DNA from: Lachnospiraceae bacterium | GTDB taxonomy: Bacteria > Bacillota > Clostridia > Lachnospirales > Lachnospiraceae | Direction: 5' to 3' | NCBI GenBank assembly: GCA_021199235.1 | Contig: JAJQIL010000037.1 | Location: 62,001-126,000, forward strand | DNA length: 64,000 nucleotides | Part shown: one piece after another, positions 10,395-64,000 of the stretch | How the letters are laid out: each line of letters begins with the position of its first letter | Numbering within the stretch: the first letter of the stretch is position 1 | Notes under the pieces: model-generated | The model's input: only the letters and a program-made list of their open reading frames with translations | Told to the model about the DNA's origin: nothing | Databases searched by the model: none | Made by a program: the position numbers and the translations under genes

Positions 10395-13300
10395 TCAGGA
10401 AACCTTTCTGCCCGGTTCTTCCGGGCTGTGGTTCATGATCAGCATCTGCAGCCGGTTCTCCACATTCGCATAGCTGGTGTCGGGATCAAGGTCGAGCGGC
10501 AGGATTGAAATGTCCGGATATTCCTCTTTCAATCGCTTGATGACTCCGCGCCCGCAGACGTGGTTCGGCAGACAGCCGAAGGGCTGCAGGATGATAAACG
10601 ACTTTACTCCTTCTTTCGCGTTGTGCGCGATCTCCGCCGCCATCAGCCAGCCCTCCCCGCAGCTTAAGGTCTCGGGGATGATGTCGCTGACTTCCCTGTA
10701 TAGTTCTTTTGGCTTTTTTTCGTATTCATACAACTCATGGCGGACGGCAACCTTTTCCAGCTGCTTCTGAACATAGTCAAACAGCCCCTCTACCAGCTGC
10801 GGCCAGGGAGGAATGCTGACATGGTAGTCTTTGATCTCGCATTCGGTAGCACGGAAATCCTTCCGCAGCTGGTCAGTAATCCTGGGGAATGCCGTCTCCA
10901 TGCCGTTGGCTTCCAGATACCGTTCAATATTGAAGTTGGAGCCGGGATGATAGGTCACCAGCAGTTCTCCGGTGACAAACACCTTCGGTTTCAAATGACT
11001 CCGGTCATAGGGGATCTTCCCCATCCGGTCAATACAGGTCTCAAAAACCTTTCTGGCGTTTTTCACGCCTTTGCGAATGCCTTCGGCCAACTGATTCACG
11101 CAGTCATTGTAAACCTCGTCCGTCTCCCCGGGATGCAGTTCGTAAGGACGGATTTTCCGGCAAATATCCGTGAGAATATCCAGCATCATAAAGGTCCATA
11201 CCGCTTCCCAGATGGCGGAAATTCCAAGAATCATTACACCCGGGTGCATATCCTTCGTGTCATTGGCATCGGTGGTCACAATAGGAACATCTGTAAAACC
11301 GGCCCGGTCCAGGCCTTTCCGCAGAAGTCCCGCATAATGCGACATCCGGCAGTCACACTGGAATTTTACCATGGCCACGGCCACTTCATCCTGCCGGTAG
11401 TTTCCCCTCTGCAATTCACTGATCAGTTCTCCGATCACCATCTGACACGGAAAACAGATATCATTATGGACATACTTCTTTCCCAGGGCAATCTGCTCCG
11501 GTCCGCCGATGGGAAGCGTTTTCACGGTGTAGTTTTCCTTTTCCATAATGGCAGACAACAGAACAGATACCTCTTTGGAGATATTCGGCACCAGGATCGT
11601 GCGCCGTTTTCGGTCTTCTTTGCGGAATTTCGCGGGACTCGGCTCTGATAGTTTTCCCTGAAAAGTGCCGGCCATACGTGCAGCGTTTTCTACATGTCCG
11701 ACACAGCTTTCCGCCGTCCGTGACGAAACAGAAAGCGTTTCCGTACGTTCCATGCATTCCCGGACGCACTCATTCCTGCGCCTGATCGCAATCGTTTCCA
11801 GAAACGACTGAATGCGAATGCCAAGTGAGCCGGTGGCGTCGCTTTCGTCCACCTTGAGGATCAGCGGAGATTTGTTGCCGCACTCTGCCAGAATCCGGGT
11901 TATCTCATCGGACAGGATGGCATCATGTCCGCAGCCAAAGCTGACGATCTGCACATACTCCAGCGCCGGGTCTTTTGCCGCAACCATCGCACCCTCCAGC
12001 ATCCGCGTGTGAAAGTCATTGGTAATCTCGATTCTGGTATTTTTCAGATCCTGCTTACTAAGGTCGGGCAGACTGTCCACCGTCAGCACCGAAACACCAC
12101 GCTCGGTGAAGCGTCTGGACAGGTCGTGACAGATAAAAGGATCGGTGTGATAGGGACGTCCGGCCAATACGACCGCATACGTGCCGGATTCATGCGCCTG
12201 TCGGATGATCTCACTGCCCCGCCGCACCAGCGTTTCCCGGAAAGAGAGCAGCGCCTGCTCCCCGTCCGCAAAGGCCGACGCCGCTTCCGCTTTCGTCACA
12301 CCCAGCGTCTCTACTGCATAACTGCAGATCTGCTTTTTCCGGTCTTTCTCCTCAAACCAGTGAAACACCGGCGTATCAAATACGACTTTTCCCTCTTTCT
12401 CCGGATTCTGCGAATTGCGCACGACCATCGGGTATCCCTGAAGGACAGAACAAACATAAGGACTGAGCTTGTCCACTCCCTCCGGAGGCATGTGCATCAC
12501 ATAAGGGAAAAAGATACGGTCGACGCCCATCCCGGCCAGATTCATAACATGCCCATGCACCAGCTTGGCGGGAAAACAGACCGTATCCGACGCTACATAT
12601 TGCAGCCCCTGCTCATAAAGCTTCCGCGAGCTTTTGTGGGAAAACTTCGTCTGATACCCCAACGCCCGGAAAAAGGTACTCCAGAACGGCATACTGTCCC
12701 AGAATTCCAGCACCCTGGGCAGACCGACCACCTCTCCTTTATCCGGAGCTGCCTGATGGTACGGATAGTCTGCAAAAAGCAGGTTTTCGCGCTCTCTGAA
12801 CAGATCAGCAGGTCTCTCTGTTTGTTTTTCTGTCGGCTTCTCTGTTGATTTCTCTGGCGCTGCCTTGTGTTCCTTCGTGGATTTCATATAATCTGCTTTA
12901 CTCTGTTGTCCACATCCTGCGGTCACATCTTTTTCTTCAACCCCCGCCCCTTTCTCGCACCGGTTGCCGGATACCCAGGTTTTCCCGGTGGAAAAAGTGA
13001 CGATCGTGCGATTGCACCGGTTTCCGCATCCGGTGCATTGTACGCCGCTGCGCGTCTCATAGGAAAACTTCTCAAGAGCGTCAAATCCTATAAAAGAGGA
13101 TTCTTTTCCGTCCGGATAACCCGCTTCTGTTATCTGACGTTTCACTTCCAGAGCCGCACCGATGGCTCCCATCTCTCCCGGATAAGGAGCCAGCTTTACT
13201 TCAGCGCCGAGGTATTCCTCCAGAGCGCGCAACACCGCCTGATTGCGGAACGTACCGCCCTGCACGACCACATGATTCCCCAACTGACCTGTATCAGAAA

Positions 13301-14945
13301 TACGAATGACTTTCGTAAAAACATTCTCGATCACAGAGCGGCAGAGTCCGGCCATAATATCGTCCGGGCCTTTCCCGTTTCGCTGTTCCGTAATGATCGT
13401 ACTGTTCATGAACACCGTGCAGCGGCTGCCAGGCTTTGCCGGAGATTCGGAGCGAAAGGCTGCTTCCGCAATCCTGTCCACCGGTATCTGCAGACCGGAG
13501 GCAAAATTCTCCAGAAAAGAGCCGCACCCGGACGAGCAGGCCTCATTCAGCATGATGTTCGTGATAATGCCATCCTCCAGCCAGATTGCCTTCATGTCCT
13601 GACCGCCGATGTCCAGCAAAAATGTGGTATCCGGATAGTAATGGGTACACCCTACGGCATGCGCCACTGTCTCGACCGTATGATAGTCCGCGCCAAATGC
13701 CCGCGCCAGCAGGTTTTCTCCATAGCCTGTCGTGCCAAGCCCCAGAATATGCAGCCTGATGCCCTGCGCATCATATTTTCGCTTCATTTCAAGCAGACCG
13801 TCCCGTACTACCAGCAGGGCTTCCCCTTTATTGGGTGCATAAAAGCGGTCAACCACCCGGCCTTCCTCATCCAGCAAAACAAACTTTGATGTGGTACTGC
13901 CGGAGTCAATGCCAAGCCAGACCCGCAGCTCCCCATCCACCGGTTTCGGGCTGCATAGCGCCTGCAGTTCCCTGGCATGTCGTTCCTGAAACCGCTGTTT
14001 TTCTTCCGGCGAGCAAAAGAAAGGCTTTGTCTTGTCCTCCATCTCCTGAGAAGATTTTTCCGGAGCGGCAAGTCTCCTGGCCAGTTCACGTAAAGTGACT
14101 GTATCCGCTTCTTCCTCAGCCTCCGGAAAGATCTGATCAATGGCGATAGCCGTCCCATAGGCTACAATCGTTTCCGGGTGCTCCGGCCGCACAATATTCT
14201 CATCTTTCAAACTCAGTCTCTCTGCAAAGGTCTTGATCAATGTCGGATTGAACGTCAGCGGTCCTCCTTCGAAAATAATAGGCGGCGCCAGCTCAAGACC
14301 CTGTGCCAGACCGCCAATGGTCTGTTTTGCGATGGCGTGAAACGTGGAAAGTGCAATATCCTCTTTCTTTGCCCCGGAGAGCAGCAGAGGCTGGATATCT
14401 GTCTTTGCGAACACGCCGCAGCGGCCGGAGATATCATAGACGGTCTGACCCTGCGACGCCAGAGCCTCAAACTGCTCCGTCTCCACATTCAGAAGCGCCG
14501 CCACCTCATCAATAAAAGCGCCGGTACCGCCGGCACAGCTTCCATTCATCCGCATGTCAGAGGTCTGCAGCTGCTCTTTTTGTTTATCATAATGAAAAAA
14601 CACAACCTTCGCGTCCTGGCCGCCAAGTTCAACAGCCGTTTTTACCTGTGGGTACAACGCCCGGACCGCTGCCGAGTTGGCCACCACTTCCTGTATGTAA
14701 TGAACGCCCAGCTTTTGGGCAATCGTCCGGCCTCCGGAGCCGCAGACCGCCGCCCGGAACCGCTGATCCGGATATTGCACCTCCGCCTCCGCAAGCAGAT
14801 TGCCAACCGTCTCTTTCTGTCTGGCGTTATGCCGCACATATCTTGCGTACAGCATCTCCTGCGTCCTGGCATCCGTGATCACCACTTTTACAGTTGTGGA
14901 ACCTACGTCGATTCCGATTCGGAGTTCTCTGTCTGTACTTTCCAC
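10395..14945 (-). CDS. Fused 2-hydroxyacyl-CoA dehydratase activase/DUF2229 protein
   Basis: 1516 residues. Two BadF/HgdC-type ASKHA ATPase domains in tandem (residues about 8-260, GIDVGSTTVKVV; about 345-600, GIDSGSTTSKFV), each with a Gly-Ser-Cys-Gly-type cluster region (MNGSCAGGTGAF; NEACSSGCGSFLENF). A Cys-bearing segment CTGCGNRCNRTIVTF, a DUF2229 region (about 730-950) and a HgdB-like C-terminal part (about 1000-1490) follow. Such proteins are widespread in clostridia; a role in ATP-driven low-potential electron transfer is inferred from the activases. A Lys/Glu/Thr-rich insert lies near residues 660-710, and a palindromic repeat copy adds GHVENAARMAG near residue 1085. The start is GTG with GAGGAAG upstream. 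Confidence 0.85.
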   Translation of the reverse strand: MESTDRELRIGIDVGSTTVKVVITDARTQEMLYARYVRHNARQKETVGNLLAEAEVQYPDQRFRAAVCGSGGRTIAQKLGVHYIQEVVANSAAVRALYPQVKTAVELGGQDAKVVFFHYDKQKEQLQTSDMRMNGSCAGGTGAFIDEVAALLNVETEQFEALASQGQTVYDISGRCGVFAKTDIQPLLLSGAKKEDIALSTFHAIAKQTIGGLAQGLELAPPIIFEGGPLTFNPTLIKTFAERLSLKDENIVRPEHPETIVAYGTAIAIDQIFPEAEEEADTVTLRELARRLAAPEKSSQEMEDKTKPFFCSPEEKQRFQERHARELQALCSPKPVDGELRVWLGIDSGSTTSKFVLLDEEGRVVDRFYAPNKGEALLVVRDGLLEMKRKYDAQGIRLHILGLGTTGYGENLLARAFGADYHTVETVAHAVGCTHYYPDTTFLLDIGGQDMKAIWLEDGIITNIMLNEACSSGCGSFLENFASGLQIPVDRIAEAAFRSESPAKPGSRCTVFMNSTIITEQRNGKGPDDIMAGLCRSVIENVFTKVIRISDTGQLGNHVVVQGGTFRNQAVLRALEEYLGAEVKLAPYPGEMGAIGAALEVKRQITEAGYPDGKESSFIGFDALEKFSYETRSGVQCTGCGNRCNRTIVTFSTGKTWVSGNRCEKGAGVEEKDVTAGCGQQSKADYMKSTKEHKAAPEKSTEKPTEKQTERPADLFRERENLLFADYPYHQAAPDKGEVVGLPRVLEFWDSMPFWSTFFRALGYQTKFSHKSSRKLYEQGLQYVASDTVCFPAKLVHGHVMNLAGMGVDRIFFPYVMHMPPEGVDKLSPYVCSVLQGYPMVVRNSQNPEKEGKVVFDTPVFHWFEEKDRKKQICSYAVETLGVTKAEAASAFADGEQALLSFRETLVRRGSEIIRQAHESGTYAVVLAGRPYHTDPFICHDLSRRFTERGVSVLTVDSLPDLSKQDLKNTRIEITNDFHTRMLEGAMVAAKDPALEYVQIVSFGCGHDAILSDEITRILAECGNKSPLILKVDESDATGSLGIRIQSFLETIAIRRRNECVRECMERTETLSVSSRTAESCVGHVENAARMAGTFQGKLSEPSPAKFRKEDRKRRTILVPNISKEVSVLLSAIMEKENYTVKTLPIGGPEQIALGKKYVHNDICFPCQMVIGELISELQRGNYRQDEVAVAMVKFQCDCRMSHYAGLLRKGLDRAGFTDVPIVTTDANDTKDMHPGVMILGISAIWEAVWTFMMLDILTDICRKIRPYELHPGETDEVYNDCVNQLAEGIRKGVKNARKVFETCIDRMGKIPYDRSHLKPKVFVTGELLVTYHPGSNFNIERYLEANGMETAFPRITDQLRKDFRATECEIKDYHVSIPPWPQLVEGLFDYVQKQLEKVAVRHELYEYEKKPKELYREVSDIIPETLSCGEGWLMAAEIAHNAKEGVKSFIILQPFGCLPNHVCGRGVIKRLKEEYPDISILPLDLDPDTSYANVENRLQMLIMNHSPEEPGRKVS
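11667..11702. repeat. In-frame palindromic repeat, type A, in the activase gene
   Basis: Core CAGCGTTTTCTACATG with outer arms of the CGGCCA/TGTCCG kind, matching the NAD-synthetase copy closely. On the coding strand it gives GHVENAARMAG. It sits in a poorly conserved linker before the C-terminal domain. Confidence 0.7.
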
Positions 14946-15062
14946 TTAATGACTTCCTCTCTTCTTTTGTTATAGGCGTGTTATAACGTATGTTTTCTTT
15001 TATGTCAAGCCGGAACCAGACAGCCGCCTTTCCGAAAAAAGGCGCAATCGTCTCCGGAATAG

Positions 15063-15083
15063 AAAAGCAGCCTTAATGGCTGC
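15063..15083 (-). terminator. Intrinsic terminator after the acyltransferase gene
   Basis: On the minus strand AGCAGCC-ATTA-AGGCTGCT followed by TTTCT, directly after the stop codon. Confidence 0.75.
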
Positions 15084-15965: not shown

Positions 15966-16927
15966 ACGCGAATTGTTTCCCCTTTCTCAAGCATTTTGCG
16001 AAAAGTGACCTCCTGGGTACACACTCCTGGACCTTTTGCGATCATGTTTTTCAGACAGGTCTGATCTGATTTTTTCTGTTCGTCCGAATAGTGATCCTTA
16101 AAACGCACGATGTCCGGATAGAACGGAGATTTTTCCGCGCAGCTCCAGAAATACTCTTCATACGGGATATTGTCATAGCACCACGGCTTCTGAAACAGGT
16201 TGTAATGAATCAGTTTGGGATTCTTCAGCACTTCAGCGTCTTTTCCGCCCATCGGCGGCATGGCATCCCACGTCTCATCCAGATAGACGATTTTGCCGCT
16301 GCACATCGCATTGATGTAATCCTGATCGGGAGCAAGACAATCAAAGTGAAAGGTATGCAACAGCCGGAGAAAATGGTCACAGAATCCCGCTTCCCGCATT
16401 TTTTTCAGGTTCATCAGCAGAATACCGGAATTGATGTACTCATCAATCGGCACACCGACTGCGTTTTCTACATATTCCACCAGTTCAGGAACCGGCGTGA
16501 TGGAGCGGTCGGCACAGGCTCCAATGATATTGTCGCCCAATTCTACCTGGTACAATTCTGAAATATCACCGGGCACCACAATATCACTGTCAAGATAAAT
16601 TCCCTTGTCATACTCAGGGAACCGATCAGCAATAAACAGCCGGAAATATATAGTCAGCGTAAAATAATCACAGCGCAGACGGTTTTCCGTCCTGTCAGTA
16701 ATGCCTGCCAGTTCCTTTTCCATCGGAACAAAGCGAATCTCAAATGGTGCGTGCACACCGGAGGCAATCTTATCCTGACTCTCTTCCGTTAAATCCTGAT
16801 GCAGGACAATGATCTGATACCTGTATGCTTCAGACGCGTGCTCCTCCAGCGAGCGGATCGCGCAGTCCAGCCAGGGAGCATAGCTCTCATCCGTTGTAAA
16901 AAAAATGGGTACTGCATTCTCTTTCAT
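15959..16927 (-). CDS. Family 8 glycosyltransferase
   Basis: 322 residues of the GT8 family: PIFFTTDESYAPWLDCAIRSL at the N-terminus, the metal-binding DxD in IYLDSDIVVPGD, and INSGILLMNLKKMRE plus the C-terminal IHYNLFQKPW. It transfers a sugar from a UDP donor with retention. Clostridial relatives act on lipid-linked or surface glycans. First gene of a two-gene operon with the acyltransferase; start ATG has GGGAGG upstream and a clear promoter lies about 95 bases before it. Confidence 0.88.
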   Translation of the reverse strand: MKENAVPIFFTTDESYAPWLDCAIRSLEEHASEAYRYQIIVLHQDLTEESQDKIASGVHAPFEIRFVPMEKELAGITDRTENRLRCDYFTLTIYFRLFIADRFPEYDKGIYLDSDIVVPGDISELYQVELGDNIIGACADRSITPVPELVEYVENAVGVPIDEYINSGILLMNLKKMREAGFCDHFLRLLHTFHFDCLAPDQDYINAMCSGKIVYLDETWDAMPPMGGKDAEVLKNPKLIHYNLFQKPWCYDNIPYEEYFWSCAEKSPFYPDIVRFKDHYSDEQKKSDQTCLKNMIAKGPGVCTQEVTFRKMLEKGETIRVC

Positions 16928-17019
16928 TGTTACCTCCCCGCGGCAATGTTTGCATTATATTATTATATTTTTGCAGCTTCAGTTTTTATTGGCACACGAA
17001 TATTGATTTTGTTACAGGA

Positions 17020-17048
17020 AATATAGCACAATCATTAGCACTCGTCAA
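17020..17048 (-). promoter_or_regulatory. Promoter of the GT8-acyltransferase operon
   Basis: Minus strand TTGACG (17048-17043), 17-base spacer, TATATT (17025-17020). Good sigma-A match. Confidence 0.7.
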
Positions 17049-17099
17049 CAGCAGTTGCTGATAATTTATATTTATTTCATAATTACAACCGTTTCCTGA

Positions 17100-17152: not shown

Positions 17153-17189
17153 TGTTATATATACGATTGGCATTATCGAACCGGTCAGA

Positions 17190-21880: not shown

Positions 21881-23776
21881 ATCGGATAGGGGGATGATTA
21901 GTCCCCCTTCCACACCACCTGGCATACCGTTCGGTACCAAGGCGGTTCAATAGTTTACACGTACTTTTAGATAGTGGTCAGTCATGGAGGGATATCCCAG
22001 CCTGCTCACTATTATTGTTTTCGTGAGCGCACCGTTCAGCATTTTTGCTGCTCGCCACGTTCCTTTCCGACAGTTCGCCATTTCATGCACTTTCCCCTCT
22101 GGTAGATGTAATGCTCGCAGCATTCTATATCTCGTGCGAACCTTTTTCCATTGTTTCCAGTACACTGCCCGGATTCGATGGCGCAGCCATTCATCCGTTT
22201 GTGCCATCAGAGTTTTCATGTCTGCATAGCGAAAATAGTTTATCCACCCAGTCGTATATTCCCTGAGCTTCTTCTCTCTTTCCGCGTTGCTCCATTTGTT
22301 GCCTCTGGTCGTCAGTTCCCTCAGTCGATTTTTCATTTTGGTCACCGATTTTGGGTGTACTCTTAGCCTGCATTTCCCTCTGTATCGGTAGAATCCATAG
22401 CCAAGGTATTTTATCTTGCTGACATGGCTTACTGTCGTTTTCTGAAGATTGATTTTCAGGAATAGTTTATCAGTGATGTATGGCACGATATTGTTCAGTG
22501 TCCGCTCTGCACTCTTCTGACTTTTGCAGAAAATAATGCAGTCATCGGCGTACCGGACAAATTTGTGTCCCCTTTGTTCCAGTTCCTTGTCCAGTTCGTT
22601 TAGCATGACATTCCCACATAGCGGGCTGAGTGGACCGCCCTGCGGTACACCTTCTGTCGTCGCATGAAATCCTCCGTCTTCCATGACTCCTGCGTTCAGG
22701 TATTTGTGTATCAACGATATGACCCGGCCATCCTTGACCGTCCTCGACAGCACTTCTATCAGTTTGCTGTGGTTAACGGTATCAAAGTATGACTGTAAAT
22801 CCATGCTGACCACGTATACGTACCCTTCATCGACGTATTCTTTACATCTTTTCAGCGCGTCATGGGCACCCCTTTTGGGGCGGAAGCCGAAACTGTTGTC
22901 GGAAAACTGTTCTTCGTAGATTAGTGTCAGTTCCTGTGCGATTGCCTGCTGCACCATCCTGTCCACCACCGTGGGTATTCCTAATTTCCTTACTTTTCCC
23001 TTCTCCTCCTTGGGTATCTCTACCCTCCGAACCGGGTTGGGCTTGTATTTCCCCTCCCTCAACTGTTGAACCAGCTCCTCCCGATGGCCTCTCAGGTAGG
23101 GCAGAAGTGCATCCACCTGCATACCGTCAATGCCACCTGCGCCCCTGTTCGCCTTTACTTTCTTGTAGGCCGCGTTCAGGTTGTCGCTTCTGAGAATTGT
23201 ATCCAACAGGTTGTTCGTCCAAAAGTCCGTGTTGGTGTCGGGGTTCCGGGTAATCCATTCATGGGCGTACACTCCTGTTGTCCTTCCCTGTTCCGCAGGT
23301 ATCTTTTGCAGGTAGTCTTCGGTATGAAGTTGTCTGTACTTATTTCCATGTCCGGTTTCCATTTGGAAATGGCACCTCCTATTGTTCAGCCCTTCCCGGA
23401 GCATCTATAGCTGTTCCAGTACTATGGCCTCTGCTGACTTCTCACGGCAAGCTTTACTCCATGGCTGCGAATGTTATATCACTTATACCGCGTCCGTGAG
23501 ACCTCCCCGGGTACTCACACGTTCTTTCCCTCCATGTCCCCACCATTTTTACTGTGCAGGATTCCGTGCAGTTATAGGACTTCGACTTGTGTAGCAGCCT
23601 TATCCTCCTTTTACAGCCTGTAAATGGTTTCTGTGCGTTGGGGCAGAGGTTTGCCTACACCTTCCTTCAGCCCTCTTAAACCTCACGGCGAGAACCTTGG
23701 TGTTCAGCTATATCCTTCCCACTGCCGGGCGGATTCGGGACTTTCACCCGTTAGAACGTGCGCCCGCCGGGCGCAC
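21881..23776 (-). mobile_element. Group II intron with maturase gene
   Basis: On the minus strand the 5' end reads GTGCGCCCGGC at 23776, followed by AACGGGTGAAAGTCCCGAAT, typical of domain I. After the maturase gene, domain V reads GAACCGCC...GGTACCGAACGGTA...GGTGG and domain VI contains a GGGGGA/TCCCCC stem; the 3' end is near 21881 (CCGAT). The maturase lacks an HNH endonuclease domain, and the insertion is just after a GC-rich stem-loop, both features of bacterial class C introns. Exact 3' end is uncertain by a few bases. Confidence 0.85.
21947..23362 (-). CDS. ltrA: Group II intron reverse transcriptase/maturase
   Basis: About 471 residues from the ATG at 23362, chosen because GGAGGT precedes it; a longer frame begins at 23404 without a ribosome site. 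It has the reverse-transcriptase domain with the catalytic YADD in FVRYADDCIIF and GVPQGGPLSP before it. It also has the maturase domain X (GWINYFRYADMKTLM) and no C-terminal HNH nuclease. It assists splicing and mobility of the surrounding intron. The frame is intact, so the element may be active. Confidence 0.92.
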   Translation of the reverse strand: METGHGNKYRQLHTEDYLQKIPAEQGRTTGVYAHEWITRNPDTNTDFWTNNLLDTILRSDNLNAAYKKVKANRGAGGIDGMQVDALLPYLRGHREELVQQLREGKYKPNPVRRVEIPKEEKGKVRKLGIPTVVDRMVQQAIAQELTLIYEEQFSDNSFGFRPKRGAHDALKRCKEYVDEGYVYVVSMDLQSYFDTVNHSKLIEVLSRTVKDGRVISLIHKYLNAGVMEDGGFHATTEGVPQGGPLSPLCGNVMLNELDKELEQRGHKFVRYADDCIIFCKSQKSAERTLNNIVPYITDKLFLKINLQKTTVSHVSKIKYLGYGFYRYRGKCRLRVHPKSVTKMKNRLRELTTRGNKWSNAEREKKLREYTTGWINYFRYADMKTLMAQTDEWLRHRIRAVYWKQWKKVRTRYRMLRALHLPEGKVHEMANCRKGTWRAAKMLNGALTKTIIVSRLGYPSMTDHYLKVRVNY

Positions 23777-25582: not shown

Positions 25583-25683
25583 TGAGCTAAATCAGATTGA
25601 AAAAACTTTCAATCTTTTCGCAGACCAATTCCCCGTGGTCCGAAGCCGCACCTGCCAAAAGCGGGCACTGCTTCCACGCATGC

Positions 25684-25870
25684 AGCAGGCAGGTCTCCTG
25701 GCTTATAGTTCATCACGCGAACCGCCTTCCCGGTCTCCCAGTGGCGTTTCGGCCGCGCTCCTTAAATACAGTGACGGGATCGTACAGGATTCGCACCTGT
25801 TTCCCTCTTAGCCAAATCGCAGGCCGCATCTCTCACAGACAACATCTGTCATGTGAGAAAAGCAGTCCCT
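25684..25870 (-). promoter_or_regulatory. Cobalamin riboswitch
   Basis: On the minus strand the B12 box AGCCAGGAGACCTGC is at 25703-25689, preceded by the conserved core GAGGGAAACAGGTGCGAATC and by GATCCCGTCACTGTA, all in the usual order. The aptamer binds adenosyl- or related cobalamin and would lower expression of the chelatase/NEAT/ABC operon when B12 is plentiful. Outer boundaries are approximate. Confidence 0.92.
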
Positions 25871-26033: not shown

Positions 26034-26176
26034 GTTACTATTCACAGCTGCGCTGTGAATGTAACGATTTCGCCCCATTTTAAATGCATCTTCGATGCAT
26101 GGGGGCGAAATCACACATCCGAAACGTGTTTTGGCGCAGCCTGACAGCAAGTGTCAGGCTCGCCGTGAATAGTAAC
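26034..26176. mobile_element. MITE-like element, 143 bp, with target duplication
   Basis: Perfect 12-bp terminal inverted repeats (GTTACTATTCAC at 26034, GTGAATAGTAAC ending 26176). Both sides are flanked by TATCTCTT (26026-26033 and 26177-26184), an 8-bp target duplication. Inside are three hairpins: ATTCACAG/CTGTGAAT, GATTTCGCCCC/GGGGCGAAATC and AGCCTGACA/TGTCAGGCT. It carries no gene, so a transposase elsewhere would have to move it. It sits directly after the NAD-synthetase stop codon. Confidence 0.8.
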
Positions 26177-26184: not shown

Positions 26185-28263
26185 CTACAGCCTCTCCAGC
26201 TCATCCATCCAGATCCGCACGCTGGCGTCGCTTGGCATGCGCAGGTCGCCGCGCGGCGAGAGTGCAACGCTTCCGACCTTGGGGCCGTCCGGAATACAGG
26301 AGCGTTTGAACTGCTGCGCGAAGAAGCGGCGGTAAAATGTTTTCAGCCATTTCAGGATTGTCTTCTCGTCATAGACTCCCTGAAATGCCCGCTTCGCGAT
26401 CCGGTAAATCTTCGCCGGAGGATACCCGAACCGCAGCAGATAATACAGGAAAAAGTCATGCAGCTCGTAAGGCCCGACCAGATCCTCGGTCTTCTGTGAA
26501 ATTTCCCCGTCCTTCGGCGGCAGCAGCTCCGGGCTGACCGGAGTATCAAGTACGTCGTACAGAATCTCACTGACTGTCCGGTTCCCACAGGTGTCCGCGT
26601 AATAGCGCACCAGATGACGCACCAGCGTCTTCGGCACGGAGCAGTTCACCCCGTACATCGACATATGGTCGCCGTTGTAGGTCGCCCAGCCAAGCGCCAG
26701 CTCCGACATGTCCCCAGTGCCGATGACCAGGCCTCCGGTCTTATTCGCCAGATCCATCAGAATCTGCGTCCGCTCCCGCGCCTGTCCGTTTTCATAGGTC
26801 ACATCATGCACTTTGGGATCCTGCCCGATATCCCGGAAATGTATGTTCACAGCGTCCCGGATGTCCACCTCAAGCAGCTTCGCTCCCAGACTTTTCGTCA
26901 GGCTGCAGGCATTGTGATACGTGCGGTCTGTCGTGCCGAAGCCCGGCATCGTCACCGCCGTCATCGTATCACGCGGCAGGCCAAGCAGATCGCATGCTCT
27001 GGTCATCACCAGCAGGGCAAGCGTCGAATCCAGACCGCCGGAAATGCCGACCACCAGACTTTTCGCGTTGGTATGCTGAATCCGTTTTTTCAGGCCAAGC
27101 GCCTGAATCGAGAGGATCTCTTCACATCTGCGGCTGCGCTCCTCGTCGGCGTCCGGTACAAAAGGTGCCCGGTCAAAGGTGCGCGTCAAAACAGTTTCTT
27201 CCATATTTAAATGAAACGGTATGCGCAGGTACTTTTCCCAGTCGGGTGAAGTCTGAAACGTGGTATTCCTCCTGCGTTCAGCACAAAGTCGGCTGATGTC
27301 AAACTCTGTATACGTGGCTTTGCAGCGTGCAAAGGAAGCAGCCATGGGGTGGCTCTCCGCATATTGTCCGTACTCGCCTCGCGAGTATGGACGCAGGTCG
27401 GCGCATCGTCCGCAGGACGATTCTGCGGCATCGGCCAAACGCTCAGCGTTTTCTGCATGGCCGATGCGACCTGCCGCCGAGCCCTGGCGAGGGGGCGACT
27501 CCACATGCGCCGACTCTCCAAGAATATGTCCGTTCTCCGCCAGCAGGCAGTGCCCGCCGTAGACGACATCCTGTGTGGACTCGCCCTCTCCCGCGCTCGC
27601 GTAAATGTATCCGCACAGCAGCCGTGCCGACTGTCCCGCCACCAGTGCCCGGCGATAATCACTTTTTCCGATCACTTCATCACTCGCGGAAAGGTTCACG
27701 ATCACATTCGCGCCGACGAGGGCATGCGCTGTACTCGGCGGATTCGGCGCCCAGAGATCCTCGCACAGCTCGGCCGCGACGCACAGATCTTTTGTATAAA
27801 ACAGCAGATTCATCCCGAACGGAACCGTCTGCCCGTTGAAATCTATAAACGAAACCTCTTCACATCCCGGGGTGAAATATCTCGCCTCATAAAACTCATT
27901 ATAATTTGGCAGATGCCGTTTCGGCACGAACCCCAGCAGGTCTCCGTCTGAAAAAGCCGCTGCCACGTTGTAAAGCTTTCCATTCCGTTCTATCGGCATT
28001 CCGACAAAGATCAGAGCATCCTTTCCCGCGGAAAACGCGATCAGCCTTTCAAGCGAATCCCGCGCGGCCTCCAGAAGTGTTTCCTGCCAGAACAGATCCC
28101 CGCAGGTGTAGCCGGTCACGCACAGCTCCGGAAACACCAGAATCTTCGCGTGTTCCCGCAGAGCCTCCTCAATTCCGGCGCAGATACTCTCCGTATTGTA
28201 TACACAGTCCGCTACCCGTATTTCCGGCGACAGCGCCGCCACCTTTATAAAGCCATCTTTCAT
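26185..28263 (-). CDS. nadE: Glutamine-dependent NAD+ synthetase
   Basis: 692 residues. An N-terminal nitrilase-type glutaminase domain (about 1-290) with Glu in VFPELCVTGY, Lys in FVPKRHLPNYNEF and Cys in AAELCEDLWAP is followed by the NAD synthase domain with the pyrophosphate loop VGISGGLDSTLAL and SELALGWATYNGDHMSMYGVN. It makes NAD+ from deamido-NAD+, ATP and glutamine. It is about 50 residues longer than usual. The excess is a block of palindromic repeats translated in frame near residues 255-300, between the two domains. Stop codon borders the MITE duplication. Confidence 0.93.
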   Translation of the reverse strand: MKDGFIKVAALSPEIRVADCVYNTESICAGIEEALREHAKILVFPELCVTGYTCGDLFWQETLLEAARDSLERLIAFSAGKDALIFVGMPIERNGKLYNVAAAFSDGDLLGFVPKRHLPNYNEFYEARYFTPGCEEVSFIDFNGQTVPFGMNLLFYTKDLCVAAELCEDLWAPNPPSTAHALVGANVIVNLSASDEVIGKSDYRRALVAGQSARLLCGYIYASAGEGESTQDVVYGGHCLLAENGHILGESAHVESPPRQGSAAGRIGHAENAERLADAAESSCGRCADLRPYSRGEYGQYAESHPMAASFARCKATYTEFDISRLCAERRRNTTFQTSPDWEKYLRIPFHLNMEETVLTRTFDRAPFVPDADEERSRRCEEILSIQALGLKKRIQHTNAKSLVVGISGGLDSTLALLVMTRACDLLGLPRDTMTAVTMPGFGTTDRTYHNACSLTKSLGAKLLEVDIRDAVNIHFRDIGQDPKVHDVTYENGQARERTQILMDLANKTGGLVIGTGDMSELALGWATYNGDHMSMYGVNCSVPKTLVRHLVRYYADTCGNRTVSEILYDVLDTPVSPELLPPKDGEISQKTEDLVGPYELHDFFLYYLLRFGYPPAKIYRIAKRAFQGVYDEKTILKWLKTFYRRFFAQQFKRSCIPDGPKVGSVALSPRGDLRMPSDASVRIWMDELERL
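27363..27502. repeat. Composite in-frame repeat, types C+A+B, in nadE
   Basis: From left: type C hairpins (GTCCGTACTCG/CGAGTATGGAC and ATCGTCC/GGACGAT, 27363-27428), type A (27429-27466: outer arms CATCGGCCA/TGGCCGATG, inner AAACGCT/AGCGTTT), and type B (27475-27502, CGCC...GGCG followed by AGGGGGCG). Coding-strand peptide includes PPRQGSAAG and GHAENAERLAD. All three types recur elsewhere in the window. Confidence 0.85.
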
Positions 28264-32931: not shown

Positions 32932-32963
32932 GTTACATTCACAGCGCATCTGTGAATAATAAC
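32932..32963. repeat. Short palindrome related to the MITE end
   Basis: GTTACATTCACAG...CTGTGAATAATAAC, 32 bases, closely similar to the left 32 bases of the MITE at 26034. It lies between the permease and GH3 genes and may be a solo end or a separate small element. Confidence 0.6.
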
Positions 32964-34804: not shown

Positions 34805-34819
34805 AGTCACGCCTCCAAA

Positions 34820-34888
34820 TACTGTCCATGCCCGCTTTGCAAGTATGGACGCAGGCCGCCGCATCGAAAGCAGGACGATTCTGCATGC
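34820..34888. repeat. Type C palindromic repeat between binding protein and permease
   Basis: Hairpins GTCCATGC/AAGTATGGAC and a segment CAGGACGATTCTGCATGC that match the type C part of the nadE repeat (shared TATGGACGCAGG and GCAGGACGATTCTGC). It is intergenic here, showing the element occurs both in and outside genes. Confidence 0.7.
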
Positions 34889-50430: not shown

Positions 50431-50505
50431 CAGTCGTGGTGAATGCGAAGCACAGAGCAATCCGTGGTATTATCGTATTATCACACAGAGAAAAGCAACG
50501 TGGAA

Positions 50506-50537
50506 TCGCCCATGCAGAATCGCTCCGCGATGGGCGA
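50506..50537. repeat. Palindrome in the murC leader
   Basis: TCGCCCAT ... ATGGGCGA, 8-bp perfect arms enclosing GCAGAATCGCTCCGCG. The inner part resembles the type C repeat (GCAGAATCG...), so it may be a related short copy. Confidence 0.5.
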
Positions 50538-50572
50538 ATCTACAGAAGATTAGAAAAGGAGCATCCCCAGAT

Positions 50573-53314: not shown

Positions 53315-54352
53315 TCAGTCTCCATACTTCTTCTGTATCCTTATATCTTCTCCGATCAGCTTCAGCATCTGATAGCTGCCGGTGATCCGCGAGACGACGC
53401 GTTCCGAATAGCGGTCCGCCATCTGTCCCAGAGACAGATTCGTCGAGATCAGTGTGCTCTTCTGCCGCAGGATCCGCTCATTCAGCACATGAAAAAGCTG
53501 CGAAGCGACAAAGGAATTGGTCTGCTCCGTCCCCAGATCATCGATAATCAGAAGGTCGCACTCAAAAATATGCCGCTCCAGCTCCCCCGCTTCCTCTTCC
53601 CCCGTCCTTCTGAAGGAAGAATCCGCCAGAAGCTCAAAAAGATCATAGGAAGAAAAATAAATCACCGAATGTGTCGTCTCCAGCAGCGCGTTCGCGATAC
53701 AGTGAGAAAGGAATGTCTTCCCCAGTCCGGTACTGCCGGAAAGGAACAGGTTCCCCGCGTTCTCATCAAACTCCTGCACAAACCGCCTGCACTCCTCCAG
53801 CGCGTGCGAAGCCATCTGCGCCGCTGTAAGTCCCGTCGCCGGATCGTTAAGATCATCCGCATAATATCGCAGGGAAAATGCCGGGAAAGTCTCTTCTTTG
53901 TAGTGTTCACGAAGGTTCGACTGTGTATACAGCAGATCAATCTCCGCTCTCTGAAAACAGTGGCATTTTGCCTGCCCGATGTATCCGGTATCCTGGCAGT
54001 CCGGACAGTCATACCGCATTTTCAGATAATCCTCCGGATATCCGGCTTCCTTTAAAAGCTGCGCTTTCTGAGCGCTGAGATTGCTGATGCGCTCGCGCAG
54101 CGCATGAAGGGGATCCGGCACCGTCTTCCCGATCGTATCGGCCGAACTTTGGCGAAGGGGCGTTTCCACCTGTGCCAGCATCATCCGCGCACACGCTACT
54201 CCCGCCGCGGCAATCTGCGCGTCCAGATCCGCCAGCGCCGGGATACGGCCGCGAACCTCCTGCTCACGTTCCGAGAGCTCCCTTCTTGCCCGGTTCTGAC
54301 GGCGCTGATAGTCCCGCATGATTTCATCATATTGAGAATTTGTCAGTCCCAT
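53315..54352 (-). CDS. dnaC: DnaC/DnaI-like helicase-loading ATPase
   Basis: 345 residues. A zinc-type CPDCQDTGYIGQAKCHC motif (about 112-129) comes before an AAA+ domain with Walker A GSTGLGKTFLSHC and Walker B CDLLIIDDLGTEQ. It loads the replicative helicase. A type B repeat in the N-terminal part gives ETPLRQSSAD. It follows the DnaD-like gene and is preceded by an 8-bp tandem repeat that abuts its ribosome site (AAGGAG). Confidence 0.88.
   Translation of the reverse strand: MGLTNSQYDEIMRDYQRRQNRARRELSEREQEVRGRIPALADLDAQIAAAGVACARMMLAQVETPLRQSSADTIGKTVPDPLHALRERISNLSAQKAQLLKEAGYPEDYLKMRYDCPDCQDTGYIGQAKCHCFQRAEIDLLYTQSNLREHYKEETFPAFSLRYYADDLNDPATGLTAAQMASHALEECRRFVQEFDENAGNLFLSGSTGLGKTFLSHCIANALLETTHSVIYFSSYDLFELLADSSFRRTGEEEAGELERHIFECDLLIIDDLGTEQTNSFVASQLFHVLNERILRQKSTLISTNLSLGQMADRYSERVVSRITGSYQMLKLIGEDIRIQKKYGD
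54138..54167. repeat. In-frame type B repeat in dnaC
   Basis: CGGCCGAACTTTGGCGAAGG then GGCGTTTCC. Same order and spacing as the type B part in nadE and GH2 (CGCC...GGCGAGGGGGCG). Peptide ETPLRQSSAD versus ETPPRQSSAD in GH2. Confidence 0.7.
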
Positions 54353-54359: not shown

Positions 54360-54407
54360 CTTACTATCTTACTATCTTACTATCTTACTATCTTACTATA
54401 TTACTAT
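54360..54407. repeat. Tandem 8-bp repeat upstream of dnaC
   Basis: Six units of CTTACTAT (last unit ATTACTAT), directly before the AAGGAG ribosome site of dnaC on the minus strand. Such runs change length by slippage and could alter dnaC translation or the spacing from dnaD. Confidence 0.9.
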
Positions 54408-54462
54408 CTTTCTGTCATCACATCCGACAATATGTATGTCTTTCTGTATTATATCTGCCTGT

Positions 54463-60200: not shown

Positions 60201-60590
60201 CCAGAAGCCCCAGGCCGTCACGCCCAGAAGCTCCGACAGATGAAACATTCCATAAATCGTACCGATCCGGTCGCTGCCGACGATCACCAGTCCCTGTCCG
60301 ACTCCGTCGATCGGCTGCTCTGCCAGATAAAAGCCATAGCTCTCCCATTTTCCTTTTAATAAAGCCAGTTCCGGGATCCTCTCTGCCAGCGTATCCGCCA
60401 GCGCATCCTGTCCCATCTGCGCGACAAGGATCGCGTACGGAACCTTTGCGCCGGGAAGGTTAATCTGACTCTTCGTACCGGTGACCGCCTCCACATCCGA
60501 AGCCACCTTTGCACCAATCTTCCGGATCCCCTGCGACGCGTGCGGATCCAGAATCACATTGATGTATCCGTCTAATCTCAATTCTGCCAT
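57258..60590 (-). CDS. Family 115 glycoside hydrolase (xylan alpha-glucuronidase)
   Basis: 1110 residues, no export signal. GH115 core: ILVAQ...YGMFHLSELLGVTAWGFWGDAAP, then SREPSVKYRGFFINDEWP, FEYLLRMKGNYLWPAMWSSSF and GMYYHVDYHGSPISYEWVNS. A beta-rich C-terminal accessory domain follows. The family removes (4-O-methyl)glucuronic acid from xylan. Three repeat-like segments are in frame: near residues 157-170, near 385 and near 585, one giving TDAAARLAGA. Confidence 0.9.
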   Translation of the reverse strand: MAELRLDGYINVILDPHASQGIRKIGAKVASDVEAVTGTKSQINLPGAKVPYAILVAQMGQDALADTLAERIPELALLKGKWESYGFYLAEQPIDGVGQGLVIVGSDRIGTIYGMFHLSELLGVTAWGFWGDAAPPWLGNVTLVEAKNSNDACPADEARKPGEEAGEEAPYRIFVENGISREPSVKYRGFFINDEWPCFGSWTFSHYQGFTAEMYDHIFEYLLRMKGNYLWPAMWSSSFLLDGPGLASMELATEYGIYIGMSHHEPCMRSGAEFSIFKGENSPYGNEWSYVTNKEGLLRFWEDGLSRVKGQNIFPTIGMRGENDSKMLGEDSTVEENVTLLKEIITEQRKLIAKHINPDLKQVPQLFAIYKEVEDYYFGNAGDAENEPCPAGASEGLQGFEELEDVTLMFCEDNFNYMRALPQDYAVSGGECKKMAEGKELSAETEASSGQRLRPHRGGYGMYYHVDYHGSPISYEWVNSTPVTRIWEQMTQAWDYGIRDVWILNVGDVRFNEYPLGYFLSLAYDFDTYRAYEHTLAYPKEWISSVFGRHERRRAPAPRMMTHQFSPIGAHWEKSGNTDAAARLAGAVDDITWVLTESVRLHSFRRAEALNDRIYHPTHYAEGRKLLARAEALEKKNEELRQALEGSSCEDAYYSLIYFPAAGIANLLKMHLYTGLNHLYGDQGKAIANQYGELLEECIARDEALAEEMAAFRDGKWRGMELERHIGFVNWNDEDFRYPVRHMLTLPKQPRLVVSRADRTESYTNQYFPDPLVVDDFRNAGTDCVTLQIANGGQGAVDWEIVGETGFQTGSAGSIKPEDCFMITPSKGSTELQTEVEIRVLRERIPAGETVEFRCAVRAGREKVPLLLSAKNRDLSEVPDGAFLMQDGVCVLDAEDFCKSVPAAYAGGCTSEDASDQLLNGSVCSPGFGVLKDYGKYGSAVKAFPTTAVYNKEDQVAGRAPSLTWEVWVSPEEYHPASLPDGAAYTGDACGCETFAGGFRLILHTSPSNPLVYGGQLRLGVSVNGEAVQTVCITGDNYRGGDPSCEEWCRAALDQEHEAEIQVYLKEGLNRITVFAGDAGIALERLTLVREGTELLPSYFGPEKSWRKGQ
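58831..58867. repeat. In-frame type A repeat in GH115
   Basis: CCCCGGCCAAACGTGCAGCG shares almost its whole left half with the copy at the window's right edge. The right arm has decayed. Peptide AAARLAGA. Confidence 0.65.
59415..59450. repeat. Degenerate type A repeat in GH115
   Basis: Contains CGTTTTCTGCAT with a GCCGG arm, but the second arm is poorly kept. Peptide NAGDAENEPCPAG. Lower certainty than the other copies; a similar weak copy may lie at 60121-60155. Confidence 0.45.
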
Positions 60591-60703
60591 AGCTCACTAT
60601 GCTTCCTTTCTCTGCCAATCATTTGAATTGTCAAACAGGAACCTGCTGTCCCCCAGCCTGCACGCACCCATTCCGTTTCTGAATTCACAACTGTCCTGAA
60701 CAG

Positions 60704-63700
60704 CTACACCGCATCAAACCGCAGCCAGTGAAAATCAAAGCTGCAGCCCGGCAAAAACACGAGACTGATCTGCTTTTTCCCGGTCAGCGGCTCCAGCGCA
60801 AACGTATACTCGTCCGCTTCTCCCGGAAACTCCAGCACACGGCGGTCAGCCTCGGTCAAACGCGAAGCGTTTTCTGCATGACCGAGGCGACCTGCCCTCG
60901 CCGGGTGGCATCCTCGCCCTTCGGGCGGGATATCCGCCGAGCTCTGGCGAGGGGGCGTTTCCTCTTCCTCGGTCAAACGCGAAGCGTTTTCTGTATCAAT
61001 ATCCTCCAGCTTCAGAAGAATGCTGTTTTTGGGAAGCGGCGTCCGTCCCGCGATCGTAATCCGCATGGCGCCGGTCTCTCCAAAGTCCAGCTCTCCGAAT
61101 TCCAGCGTGACATTGTTGCCGATATTCTTTACCCACTCGCCGTCCCGTTCAAACTGATCGCCGTAGACACTCCGGCAGTCCAGCGCCGTCAGGCGTTCAT
61201 AGGCCAGCGTCTGACGCGTAAAGGAAAAGCCTTTGATATGGATCTTATCCCGCAGGACAAAGCAGAGCGATGTCACTCCCCGCAGGCGGCGATTCAGATG
61301 ATACGTCTCCGGCTGGTAGGTATTCCAGATTGATTTTTTCTGATATACCACTTCCGCGATCTTCTCCGCATGCGGTTCTCCCGGCATTCCTTCATATATC
61401 TCAATCTCATACGGATTGTCCGTAAGCGCAAAGATCGGGATCGTAATCTCATCCGAACCATCCGTTCCGAAGTCAATATTGTGATAACCCACCTGCGTCT
61501 CTCCGTCCCGCGCGGTCGCGACGCCATGCTCATTCCCGCTGCCCGGCGTCCCGCGGCTGTAGTCATAAAGCGCACCCGCGATAAAGCCATACGGATCCAG
61601 AAATGCCTTCCCGAGGCCTTTCGCAGTAAATTCGATCTGCGAGATCATCCGCACATCCTCTGTCCCGCTGCGTGAGGTGCAGCGCAGACGCACCTTGCCG
61701 TCGCTCACCGCGCACACACGCACCAGCCGGTCAAATCCGGAGAATGCCTCCGTATCGGACAAACGCGCAGCGTTTCCTGCCTGATCAGCGCCGGGCTGCA
61801 TCTCAGGGGGCAAATAATCCACCGGCTCCGCCACTGCAAGCGAAGAAGGGATCCCGGAATCATCCACCACACTGAACGACAGCTCGCGGTCCGTCGCATC
61901 CGGCGGACAGATGACCGCTGCCACAAGTGTCTCCGGATGCTCCGCGGTAAGAATCGTGCCGCCGAGACTTTTCAGCCGGATCGCCCTCACTGGAGTATCG
62001 GCCAAACGCGCAGCGTTTTTATCATGGCCGCCCTGCCGCAGTACCTGCTCCGGCAGGTACGCGAGCGGGCTGCTGCCGGGAACGGGCGTTCCTTCCGTCA
62101 CCGGTACAGACAGCACCGCATCCTTCAGGCCATGCGAAGCCACCGTGACTGTCAGTGTGCCCGGATTGCTATCCGCTTTTACTATAGCCAGCAGCTTGCC
62201 GCTGAACAGCCGGCGGCAGCCGCTTTTATAGCTTTCCCGGTCCGTGCTGTCGCCGTTGTCTGTCCCGACGAGAGCACCGGCTCCGGTCACGGAAATGTTC
62301 ACCCGGTTCAGCGCGTTTTCCACGGGGTTCCCCTCTCGGTCTTCCATTGAGATCTCTATAAAAAGCAGATCCGTTCCGTTTGCCGTGAGCGCACATTCCT
62401 GTCCTTCGGGCCGGATATCGTCCAGGCCCTGCGAAGAGGCGCTCCTGTAAGGCCTCAGCACAATCCTGTCCGGTTCACCGAAGGAGCGGTGCACATCCTC
62501 AGCAATGATGCGCCCCTTCTCATCATAGGCCGCCGCGCGGATCTCGCCCGGTGTATAGCGTACCTTCCAGGTCGCCGAAAGACGGACTCCCGCGCCCTTG
62601 CAGCGTACCTTCTCTTCCGGAGACAGGAGCGCCGGCGGGTCTGTCAGCTGACGAACCCCCTGACTTTCTCCGTTCAGGAACAGCTCGACCGACGCCGCGT
62701 TGGAATAAACACGCACATCAATCTCCTGCCCCTCATTATAATCCCAGTATGGGAACAGATGCACCATCGGATGCTCCTTCGGATCCCGCCAGGCTGCCTG
62801 GTAGCAGTAAAACGCGTCTTTCGGGAACCCCGCCGTGTCAATCTGTCCAAAATAAGAGTTTTTTGTATGATAAGGCGTCGGCTCTCCGATATAATCAAAT
62901 CCGGACCACAAAAACTGCCCGCAGGAATACGGATGCTCCCACTCAGCCCTGACACACTCCTCATGCGAATTCGCGCCCCAGCTCGTGGTCGAATTCCCCA
63001 GAGATGAGCACTGCTGATCCTCATCCGCCAGGACCGACTTGTCATACGGAAAATGATAAATCCCGCGGCTCTGTACAATAGAACCCGTCTCACTCCCGTA
63101 CAGGATCCAGTCCGGGTGTTCCCTGTGGTGCCGTTCATAATAATTCGCGCCGTAATTGTAGCCCTCGAGCTTCACCAGATCCGCGCATTTCTGCGCGTTC
63201 TCCCACGGCATATAGTTCGAACCGATCGTCACACGCGCATTGCCCAGCGGATCGTGTTTCTGCGTCTCCTCCATCAGCACACGCGTCCACATCTGCCCTC
63301 TCTTACCGGTATGCGTGTCATGAATCTCGTTCCCGATGCTCCACATGATCACGCAGGGATGATTCCGGTCCCGGCGGACCCAGCTCGCTACATCCTTCGG
63401 ATACCATTCCGTGAAAAAGCGCGCATAGTCATACGGCGTTTTGCCGGATTCCCACATATCAAACGCTTCCGCCACCACCAGAAATCCCATCCGGTCGGCC
63501 AGCTTCAGCACCTCCGGCGCCGACATATTGTGGGAGCAGCGGATCGCGTTGCATCCCATCTCCTTTAACACCCGCAGCTTTCGTTCCATCGCCTGCGGAT
63601 GAAACGCGCTGCCAAGACATCCCAGATCATGATGGTCGCAGACGCCGTTCAGCTTCAATTTTCTGCCGTTCAGGCAGAAGCCCTCATCCGGCAGGAATTC

Positions 63701-64000
63701 TACCGTGCGGAACCCCACTTCCTGCTCTTCTTCCTGGATCACCTCGCCGTCCCGCACAAGCTTCACCCGCAGAAGATACAGATACGGCTGCTCCACATCC
63801 CAGAGCACGGGATCATCTACAAAACCGCTGAAGCAGTGAATTTGCATTTTCTCCGGTGCCGGATTCCCCGGTGCCGCATCCCCATCCGCTCCTGTCACCA
63901 CTCTGCCATTACCCGAAAGCACGATACGGGACGCATTGCCGGAAAACGGATCCCAAAGTTCAAAAAGCGTCTCCACAGCCCCGGCCAAACGCGCAGCGTT
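60704..64000 (-). CDS. Family 2 glycoside hydrolase, N-terminus beyond window
   Basis: At least 1098 residues; the frame is open through the right window edge. GH2 core: LKLNGVCDHHDLGCLGSAFH, GCNAIRCSHNMSAPEVL, acid/base Glu in MWSIGNEIHD and nucleophile Glu in LYGSETGSIVQ. Sugar-binding and malectin-like accessory domains follow. Specificity could be beta-galactosidase, glucuronidase or similar; with GH115 adjacent, a xylan side-chain sugar is plausible. At least four good in-frame palindromic repeats and one weaker one lie in it, mostly in the linkers of the C-terminal half. Confidence 0.88.
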   Translation of the reverse strand, partial: NAARLAGAVETLFELWDPFSGNASRIVLSGNGRVVTGADGDAAPGNPAPEKMQIHCFSGFVDDPVLWDVEQPYLYLLRVKLVRDGEVIQEEEQEVGFRTVEFLPDEGFCLNGRKLKLNGVCDHHDLGCLGSAFHPQAMERKLRVLKEMGCNAIRCSHNMSAPEVLKLADRMGFLVVAEAFDMWESGKTPYDYARFFTEWYPKDVASWVRRDRNHPCVIMWSIGNEIHDTHTGKRGQMWTRVLMEETQKHDPLGNARVTIGSNYMPWENAQKCADLVKLEGYNYGANYYERHHREHPDWILYGSETGSIVQSRGIYHFPYDKSVLADEDQQCSSLGNSTTSWGANSHEECVRAEWEHPYSCGQFLWSGFDYIGEPTPYHTKNSYFGQIDTAGFPKDAFYCYQAAWRDPKEHPMVHLFPYWDYNEGQEIDVRVYSNAASVELFLNGESQGVRQLTDPPALLSPEEKVRCKGAGVRLSATWKVRYTPGEIRAAAYDEKGRIIAEDVHRSFGEPDRIVLRPYRSASSQGLDDIRPEGQECALTANGTDLLFIEISMEDREGNPVENALNRVNISVTGAGALVGTDNGDSTDRESYKSGCRRLFSGKLLAIVKADSNPGTLTVTVASHGLKDAVLSVPVTEGTPVPGSSPLAYLPEQVLRQGGHDKNAARLADTPVRAIRLKSLGGTILTAEHPETLVAAVICPPDATDRELSFSVVDDSGIPSSLAVAEPVDYLPPEMQPGADQAGNAARLSDTEAFSGFDRLVRVCAVSDGKVRLRCTSRSGTEDVRMISQIEFTAKGLGKAFLDPYGFIAGALYDYSRGTPGSGNEHGVATARDGETQVGYHNIDFGTDGSDEITIPIFALTDNPYEIEIYEGMPGEPHAEKIAEVVYQKKSIWNTYQPETYHLNRRLRGVTSLCFVLRDKIHIKGFSFTRQTLAYERLTALDCRSVYGDQFERDGEWVKNIGNNVTLEFGELDFGETGAMRITIAGRTPLPKNSILLKLEDIDTENASRLTEEEETPPRQSSADIPPEGRGCHPARAGRLGHAENASRLTEADRRVLEFPGEADEYTFALEPLTGKKQISLVFLPGCSFDFHWLRFDAV
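60850..60997. repeat. Composite in-frame repeat (A+B+A) in GH2
   Basis: Type A with perfect outer arms CCTCGGTCA/TGACCGAGG (60850-60887), then a GC-rich hairpin, type B (60935-60962) and a second type A lacking its right arm (60967-60997). Peptides ENASRLTE occur twice and ETPPRQSSAD once. Confidence 0.85.
61753..61787. repeat. In-frame type A repeat in GH2
   Basis: TATCGGACAAACGCGCAGCG followed by TTTCCTGCCTGATCA. Peptide QAGNAARLSD. Confidence 0.75.
61996..62032. repeat. In-frame type A repeat in GH2
   Basis: CGGCCAAACGCGCAGCGTTT followed by TTATCATGGCCG. Peptide GHDKNAARLAD. Confidence 0.75.
63981..64000. repeat. Type A repeat at the window edge, partial
   Basis: CCGGCCAAACGCGCAGCGTT, the left half of a type A element cut by the window end. 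Peptide NAARLAG in the GH2 frame. Confidence 0.7.

Follow-up and report, generated by a model that had tools for sequence, protein, structure and literature searches.

The stretch analysed here, a 64-kb window (64,000 nt) on contig JAJQIL010000037.1 of a Lachnospiraceae bacterium, carries copies of a short palindromic repeat that lies inside protein-coding genes and is read through by the host frame. This repeat belongs to a described family, Rfam GA-cis (RF02987). Its copies differ in presence and absence between close species, insert as whole units and show a target preference. We consider it likely that the repeat is a non-autonomous mobile palindromic element, a Lachnospiraceae branch of GA-cis, which inserts as a whole unit.

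A sequence-only reading of the window had described three types of palindromic repeat, A, B and C. The repeats are real: in the whole genome (3.47 Mb, 161 contigs), a core pattern, AAACGCGNAGCGTTT, allowed ≤1 mismatch, gave 45 matches vs. 1 for the reversed control (one palindromic place counted on both strands), and a tail pattern, GCCGCCGARCNNNNGCGAGGGGGC, allowed ≤3 mismatches, gave 46 vs. 1. The division into types was less durable. Placed side by side, the matches show A and B to be two halves of a single element of ~77 nt, and type C (27355-27426 and 34813-34884), taken for a dispersed family, has just 2 copies genome-wide at ≤3 mismatches in 25 nt.

Read on the plus strand of the window, the 5′ part of the element consists of an A, a 9-nt arm and an inner hairpin, AAACGC-GNA-GCGTTT. 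The middle holds a 7-nt one-sided bulge (often TCTNCAT), the complementary arm and GAYCT, and the 3′ part is a second hairpin, GCCGCC-GA-RC-NNNN-GY-GA-GGGGGC, followed by TTTCCA. Some copies have a 39-nt extra module in the tail. The loop of the inner hairpin is GNA on this strand, and GNA-type loops are very stable in single-stranded DNA. Across 31 aligned copies, pairing was retained in 91.1% of cells (76.1% when shuffled), 13 pairs had changed on both sides (covariation score 0.395 vs. 0.122), and 8 of the 9 pairs of the outer stem were compensated. Arm sequences were so varied that 61 were distinct among 72 copies, yet their pairing was kept. Per-site differences over all pairs of 77-nt copies were highest in the two arms (0.46 and 0.51) and lowest in the inner hairpin (0.24) and the tail (0.28).

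The sequence-only reading had not recognised the repeat; its identity came from Rfam. When 20 loci drawn from the best matches to R1, a covariance model built from 31 own-genome copies, were scored against RF02987, 19 were at or above the gathering cut-off of 34.7 bits. Within the window, 27423-27506 exceeded this cut-off (42.8 bits) and the other copies fell below it. Rfam files GA-cis as a small-RNA-type RNA gene. The two-hairpin architecture is common to the family and to the element of this genome, but the latter departs from the filing in being amplified to dozens of copies, in lying inside open frames and in forming a codon-compatible unit. In contrast, the GA-cis rows of other Lachnospiraceae genera often start with a purine-rich GAGG, and 16 of the 22 parsed rows (two rows misplaced) lie outside a long open frame, leaving 6 in open frames of at least 200 amino acids.

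R1 found copies in 16 of 60 relatives and in 8 of 11 further congeners, and in none of the 24 other-family genomes among those 60. Of 392 genomes of the order searched with the Rfam model, 11 matched at E≤0.001 and 10 exceeded the cut-off, in 8 of 173 genera. When PurL was placed in an unrooted tree (30 rows, with six copy-bearing genomes left out), a 100/100 branch splits the 11 rows with at least 21 copies from the 19 with 0-8. The nearest relatives by nadE are unnamed or uncultured Lachnospiraceae.

Two observations concern the company that GA-cis keeps. In G068 and G069 it is found within a multicopy repeat of ~0.5 kb with apparent terminal inverted repeats, whose copies are nearly identical and at which several contigs end (L457, L459, L461, L462, L464, L466, L467); we take this carriage on a longer repeat to be a special case. 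Elsewhere, a second palindrome (ATCGTCCAGTGGACGAT type, one of them a variant) directly follows the GA-cis tail at C19:41364, C92:9617, C140:2883 and C68:437 (G000), which is a nested insertion of another family.

Host genes, empty sites and target sequence

Many more copies exist in the genome than the window contains. R1 gave 87 matches at E≤0.01, of which the 4 with E above 1e-3 were excluded from counts, leaving 83 (77 under stricter filters). From these 83, flank tests used 72 copies of near-complete length, the target test 71 and the frame test 63. Open frames of at least 200 amino acids contained 72 of the 83 copies (87%), compared with 88% of 600 random 77-mers from the window; thus, the element does not avoid genes. 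Similarly, 15 of the 21 top-scoring copies in other genomes of the genus lay in long frames (one row, L149, among the 15 is misplaced, and 7 further loci were unparsed). Copies occupy all six frames in both orientations, with one antisense phase dominant (40 of 63 placed copies), and the commonest insert peptide is rich in charged residues and alanine. Each host protein, it appears, should carry an extra ~25 amino acids per copy. The element is mildly more open over its six frames than dinucleotide shuffles of it (0.736 vs. 0.663), and a length of 3n+2, equivalent to a net gain of 3n, was found in 59 of 72 copies in long frames vs. 5 of 11 elsewhere.

Among 64 host open reading frames (ORFs), 20 were scanned and 18 had a Pfam family. 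The scanned hosts read as purL, dnaX, mutL, alanine racemase (alr), mfd, a hemD fusion, a penicillin-binding protein, a UvrD-type helicase, GH2, GH31 and others. The sequence-only reading had placed all inserts in linkers or loops. Domain maps bear this out for dnaX and mutL, where the insert is outside or between Pfam domains, and for purL, where it falls in a linker-domain match, but not for the penicillin-binding protein, where it lies within the transpeptidase match, or for alr, where it lies within the N-terminal domain match, between aligned residues 120 and 121 of the solved chain 4luy.

That the repeats are inserted in frame into genes, as had been proposed, is corroborated by host frames that run through them and by clean empty sites in relatives; the homologues examined in relatives lack the corresponding peptides. 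The purL insert is exactly 78 nt, and the site was empty in 10 of 10 aligned relatives, in one of which PurL is 99% identical over residues 232-1342. G013 has a 116-nt GA-cis of its own in purL, at a different position (L316:4678-4793). The nadE insert, 58 residues made up of the element and a type C repeat, was absent in 14 of 14 aligned relatives. We aligned 16 comparisons over 14 sites (C125 being uninformative) that were chosen because BLAST showed a break at the element. At the 13 sites thus picked as empty, the net gain was 78 nt (5 sites), 75 nt (3 sites), 72, 81, 93, 114 or 76 nt, a multiple of three in 12 of 13.

For an unpicked tally, the flanks of all 83 copies were sought in stretches of the two close relatives G008 and G014. 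Among the 17 testable copies, 11 were empty in at least one relative, including C104:34638, scored empty by its alignment; two, in mfd, were filled in G008 and empty in G014, C30:25993 was filled by length, C121:5087 was intermediate, and the 2 copies on C125 were uninformative because the sequence was N-filled. For one copy that is intact in G014 (L294 / L396:8375-8451), the own genome has a shortened relic (C37:62024), which looks like decay in place.

Upstream of the element, 45 of 71 copies have C at −4 (P = 4e-10), 36 have T at −5 (P = 4e-6) and 38 have C at −1 (P = 4e-6), and the target TC lines up with the TTTCC that ends the element. The opposite strand reads this TC as GA, which makes in-frame Asp and Glu codons natural targets. 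Tandem copies at 78-nt spacing occur in several genomes. Arm types also cluster locally, with a same-contig mean distance of 3.14 vs. 4.22 when permuted (0 of 5000 permutations as low).

Three other features of the sites were considered. When the flanks of 72 copies were compared position by position for a fixed-length target duplication, the excess identity came mostly from tandem copies and a few sites, and such a duplication was rejected as a general feature. Copying of the arms from the target was set aside on inspection, as the aligned empty sites mostly lack the arm sequence (C20 is a partial exception). An orientation set by the replication strand is not supported, since local GC skew on the element strand tracks the host gene (negative for 46 of 52 antisense and 8 of 20 sense copies).

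Proposed movement of the element and rival explanations

A mobile GA-cis element could account for these results as follows. It would insert as a unit, usually with a net gain of 75 or 78 nt (114 nt with the extra module), weakly favouring targets that have T at −5 and C at −4. The GNA triloop, the variable arms and the better-kept tail suggest that both hairpins may be recognised by shape, as single-stranded DNA, and the recognising enzyme would presumably be supplied in trans. Insertion would take place without gene avoidance, selection would purge the products that break a frame, and 3n units that are open in most frames would survive as extra peptides. The frame bias could arise partly from the target, with the TC of the element strand reading as the GA of Asp and Glu codons on the gene strand.

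Several results weigh against this reading. No mobilising gene was found, Y1_Tnp being the sole enzyme family searched. It is present in 25 of 47 congeners and absent from G013 (41 copies), G031 (61 copies) and G061-G063 (38, 46 and 75 copies). Its absence from these five genomes with 38-75 copies counts against the Y1 transposase as the driver, although loss after amplification or assembly gaps could also account for it. As a target motif TC is weak, standing complete at −5/−4 in 22 of 63 placed copies. Target availability predicts 33% for the dominant frame class vs. 63% seen, so that selection or tolerance must contribute as well. What look like duplications, of 3-10 nt, are confined to some sites and have no fixed length, and the net gain at C160 is 76 nt, the one departure among the 13 sites. 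Not all sites differ between close species. Two mfd copies are shared by the own genome and G008 (filled in G008, empty in G014), C64:11691 is shared with G008, and C30:25993 is filled by length in both relatives, with a G014 sequence there that is unlike the element. Finally, the own genome has no near-identical pair of copies (nearest-neighbour median 0.84, best 0.95), which is unusual for recent jumping; short-range movement among old, diverse copies would fit both this divergence and the resemblance of copies on the same contig. As to vehicles, two exact patterns matched nothing in viral contigs, the phage collection being outside that search, and one copy had no plasmid match.

Could the copies instead be structured regulatory RNAs that control their host genes? 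The strong covariation of the stems would be expected of such an RNA, and only the 6 of 22 rows noted above for other genera are in long frames, so many of those may be leader or intergenic. In this genome, however, long open frames hold 72 of the 83 copies, which occur on either strand and in all frames, the scanned hosts share no single function and many of the sites are empty in relatives, and we regard regulation as improbable. A selected protein feature, a useful tag or linker that has spread as an adaptive peptide, is a still weaker candidate and in our view very improbable: although one frame is strongly preferred (40 of 63) and the commonest peptide is charged- and alanine-rich, all six frames of the element are in use, the scanned hosts are unrelated, and a close relative lacks the insert at 11 of the 15 informative sites. 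No host benefit is shown for the element.

The empty sites might also reflect old elements that were precisely excised in relatives, the family no longer being mobile. The own-genome copies are all fairly divergent, and C37:62024 resembles a decayed form of the intact G014 copy, as this account would have it. Yet the purL site is empty in all 10 aligned relatives, close and distant, and the nadE site in 14 of 14. Gain is favoured because a gain in a single lineage needs fewer events than many exact losses, and we give precise loss a similarly low probability to that of a regulatory RNA. Chance or compositional repetition does describe the GH115 and dnaD copies of the sequence-only reading, which are at chance level; for the family overall it is refuted by the matches against controls (45 vs. 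1 and 46 vs. 1), by covariation and by the Rfam matches, and is almost certainly wrong.

Within the preferred reading of a mobile element, a more specific proposal is that GA-cis is a recombination element read by shape, a folded single strand with sequence-free stems like the integron attC sites, and is moved, as a 3n unit, to TC-like sites by a putative recombinase. We offer this proposal as speculation that is rather unlikely to be correct. If it were true, whole proteomes could gain in-frame inserts of ~25 residues without loss of function, and the near-constant 3n unit, the period-78 arrays and the alignment of the end motif with the target would all result from unit-exact insertion.

Copies and other features in the window

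A complete element of 77 nt lies in nadE at 27427..27503, on the plus strand and antisense to the gene (R1 90.8 bits, E 4e-18; host residues 254-279). It adjoins the type C repeat at 27355..27426 (+), within the same 58-residue insert. GH2 holds several copies, all on the plus strand. A 116-nt GA-cis with the 39-nt extra tail module lies at 60848..60963 (R1 65.5 bits, E 1.4e-12; host residues 1009-1047) and is under the Rfam gathering cut-off. Directly behind it and in frame is a tandem partial copy, an arm and inner hairpin with an exact core, at 60967..60996 (R1 17.1 bits, E 0.056). A relic with hairpin 1 only, also with an exact core and read in frame as QAGNAARLSDT, lies at 61751..61782 (R1 13.3 bits, E 0.39, over 61751-61821), and a truncated copy, in frame as GHDKNAARLADT, at 61994..62046 (R1 27.8 bits, E 2.5e-4). 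Of a third GH2 element only the start, 63977..64000, is in the window; it runs past the window end and measures 116 nt in full (C23:125977-126092).

A degenerate copy at 11664..11743 (+), in frame as GHVENAARMAGT, lies in a BcrAD-type activase (R1 27.0 bits, E 3.7e-4; Pfam PF01869). The host frame reads through the copies in nadE and GH2, including 61994-62046, and through 11664-11743 as ENA-RL-like and ETPPRQ-like peptides. The copy at 54104..54168 (+) in a DnaC-like ATPase is weak by model (R1 E 0.5) and matches the tail pattern with 3 mismatches, yet it is read in frame as the peptide VETPLRQSSADT and is probably a relic of the tail half. Two further matches are on the minus strand, a weak hairpin-1 copy near the start of a Mur ligase ORF at 50488..50541 (R1 23.4 bits, E 0.0023) and a weak degenerate match, in sense orientation, in a nitrogenase-component-like gene at 2121..2194 (R1 24 bits, E 0.0017).

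The hosts named by the sequence-only reading, nadE, the activase, GH2, GH115 and the DnaC- and DnaD-like genes, were Pfam-confirmed as genes. As carriers of the repeat, nadE, the activase and GH2 stand and dnaC is weak, while DNA score lends no support to GH115 and dnaD, whose copies have 4-mismatch cores, of which 49 are expected in shuffled windows.

Other features were seen alongside. Rfam detects domains D1-D4 of a group II intron, at 113.8 and 49.3 bits, on 23389-23692 (−), next to a 485-amino-acid ORF at 21947-23404, and a cobalamin riboswitch (88.9 bits) lies at 25671-25848 (−). An inverted 32-nt pair (26034-26065 and 32932-32963), each member palindromic around TTCACAGC, bounds a 6.9-kb segment. 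Between the dnaC-like and dnaD-like genes, the octamer CTTACTAT is repeated in tandem in about six copies (54360-54415). A second dispersed repeat, of ~135 nt (L380 around 16222-16357), has copies ~70-93% identical at many loci of G000, G008 and G014.

Comparison with known palindromic elements

GA-cis, or RF02987, was mentioned in our literature searches only in a table row of the Rfam 15 paper. Searches on palindromic in-frame insertions gave nothing relevant among the matches listed for Lachnospiraceae and none for Clostridiales, and GA-cis was absent from those listed by a further search. In this clade at least, a curated RNA family of unclear role appears to be a protein-changing mobile element. 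For purL, mfd and other core genes, close species of the clade provide paired filled and empty alleles, which makes the cost, tolerance and mechanism of in-frame insertion directly testable. Inserts of ~25 residues in proteins of these bacteria can be element-derived rather than functional domains, and Rfam matches within genes may mark mobile DNA.

The sequence-only reading had likened the repeats to the Rickettsia palindromic elements (RPEs), and the comparison is apt as to behaviour. RPEs and the Wolbachia palindromic elements are described, in passages of PMC3767692 and PMC2229807, as palindromic units in frame in many unrelated genes, with functional products where tested. A palindromic unit inserted in frame within coding genes is common to RPEs and GA-cis. 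The same account gives RPEs as ~100-150 bp, with the insert at the same locus in every rickettsial ortholog of an affected gene (passages of PMC3767692). GA-cis differs in its 75/78-nt unit, in its unrelated bacterial hosts and in having filled and empty sites between close species; purL is empty in 10 of 10 aligned relatives, and G008 or G014 lacks the insert at 11 of the 15 informative sites.

Repetitive extragenic palindromic (REP) sequences of the GTAG/CGTC kind are, in the part of PMC3733652 that treats them, short palindromes of 20-40 bp, some intragenic and many of these in replication and repair genes. GA-cis copies in dnaX, mutL and mfd, all replication or repair genes, recall REPs and their REP-associated tyrosine transposases (RAYTs). 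In contrast with that system, Y1 transposases are missing from five copy-rich GA-cis genomes, although loss or assembly gaps may account for this, and inspection of the 31-copy alignment showed neither a GTAG nor a CGTC tag at either end of the consensus. The bacterial miniature inverted-repeat transposable elements (MITEs), such as ERIC, Correia/NEMIS and YPAL, are presented in passages of PMC2229807 as small non-autonomous repeats that in some cases are fused in frame to genes. GA-cis has the same small, non-autonomous nature, but its flanks (72 copies) show no fixed-length target duplication, and no terminal inverted repeats over the whole unit were visible on inspection of the same alignment. 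On this analysis, the likeness to RPEs and REPs would be one of behaviour, and we do not claim membership of either family. As far as our literature searches tell, the kind of element is already known, and what is new is the reading of GA-cis as a gene-invading mobile element, its host group and the site differences between close species.

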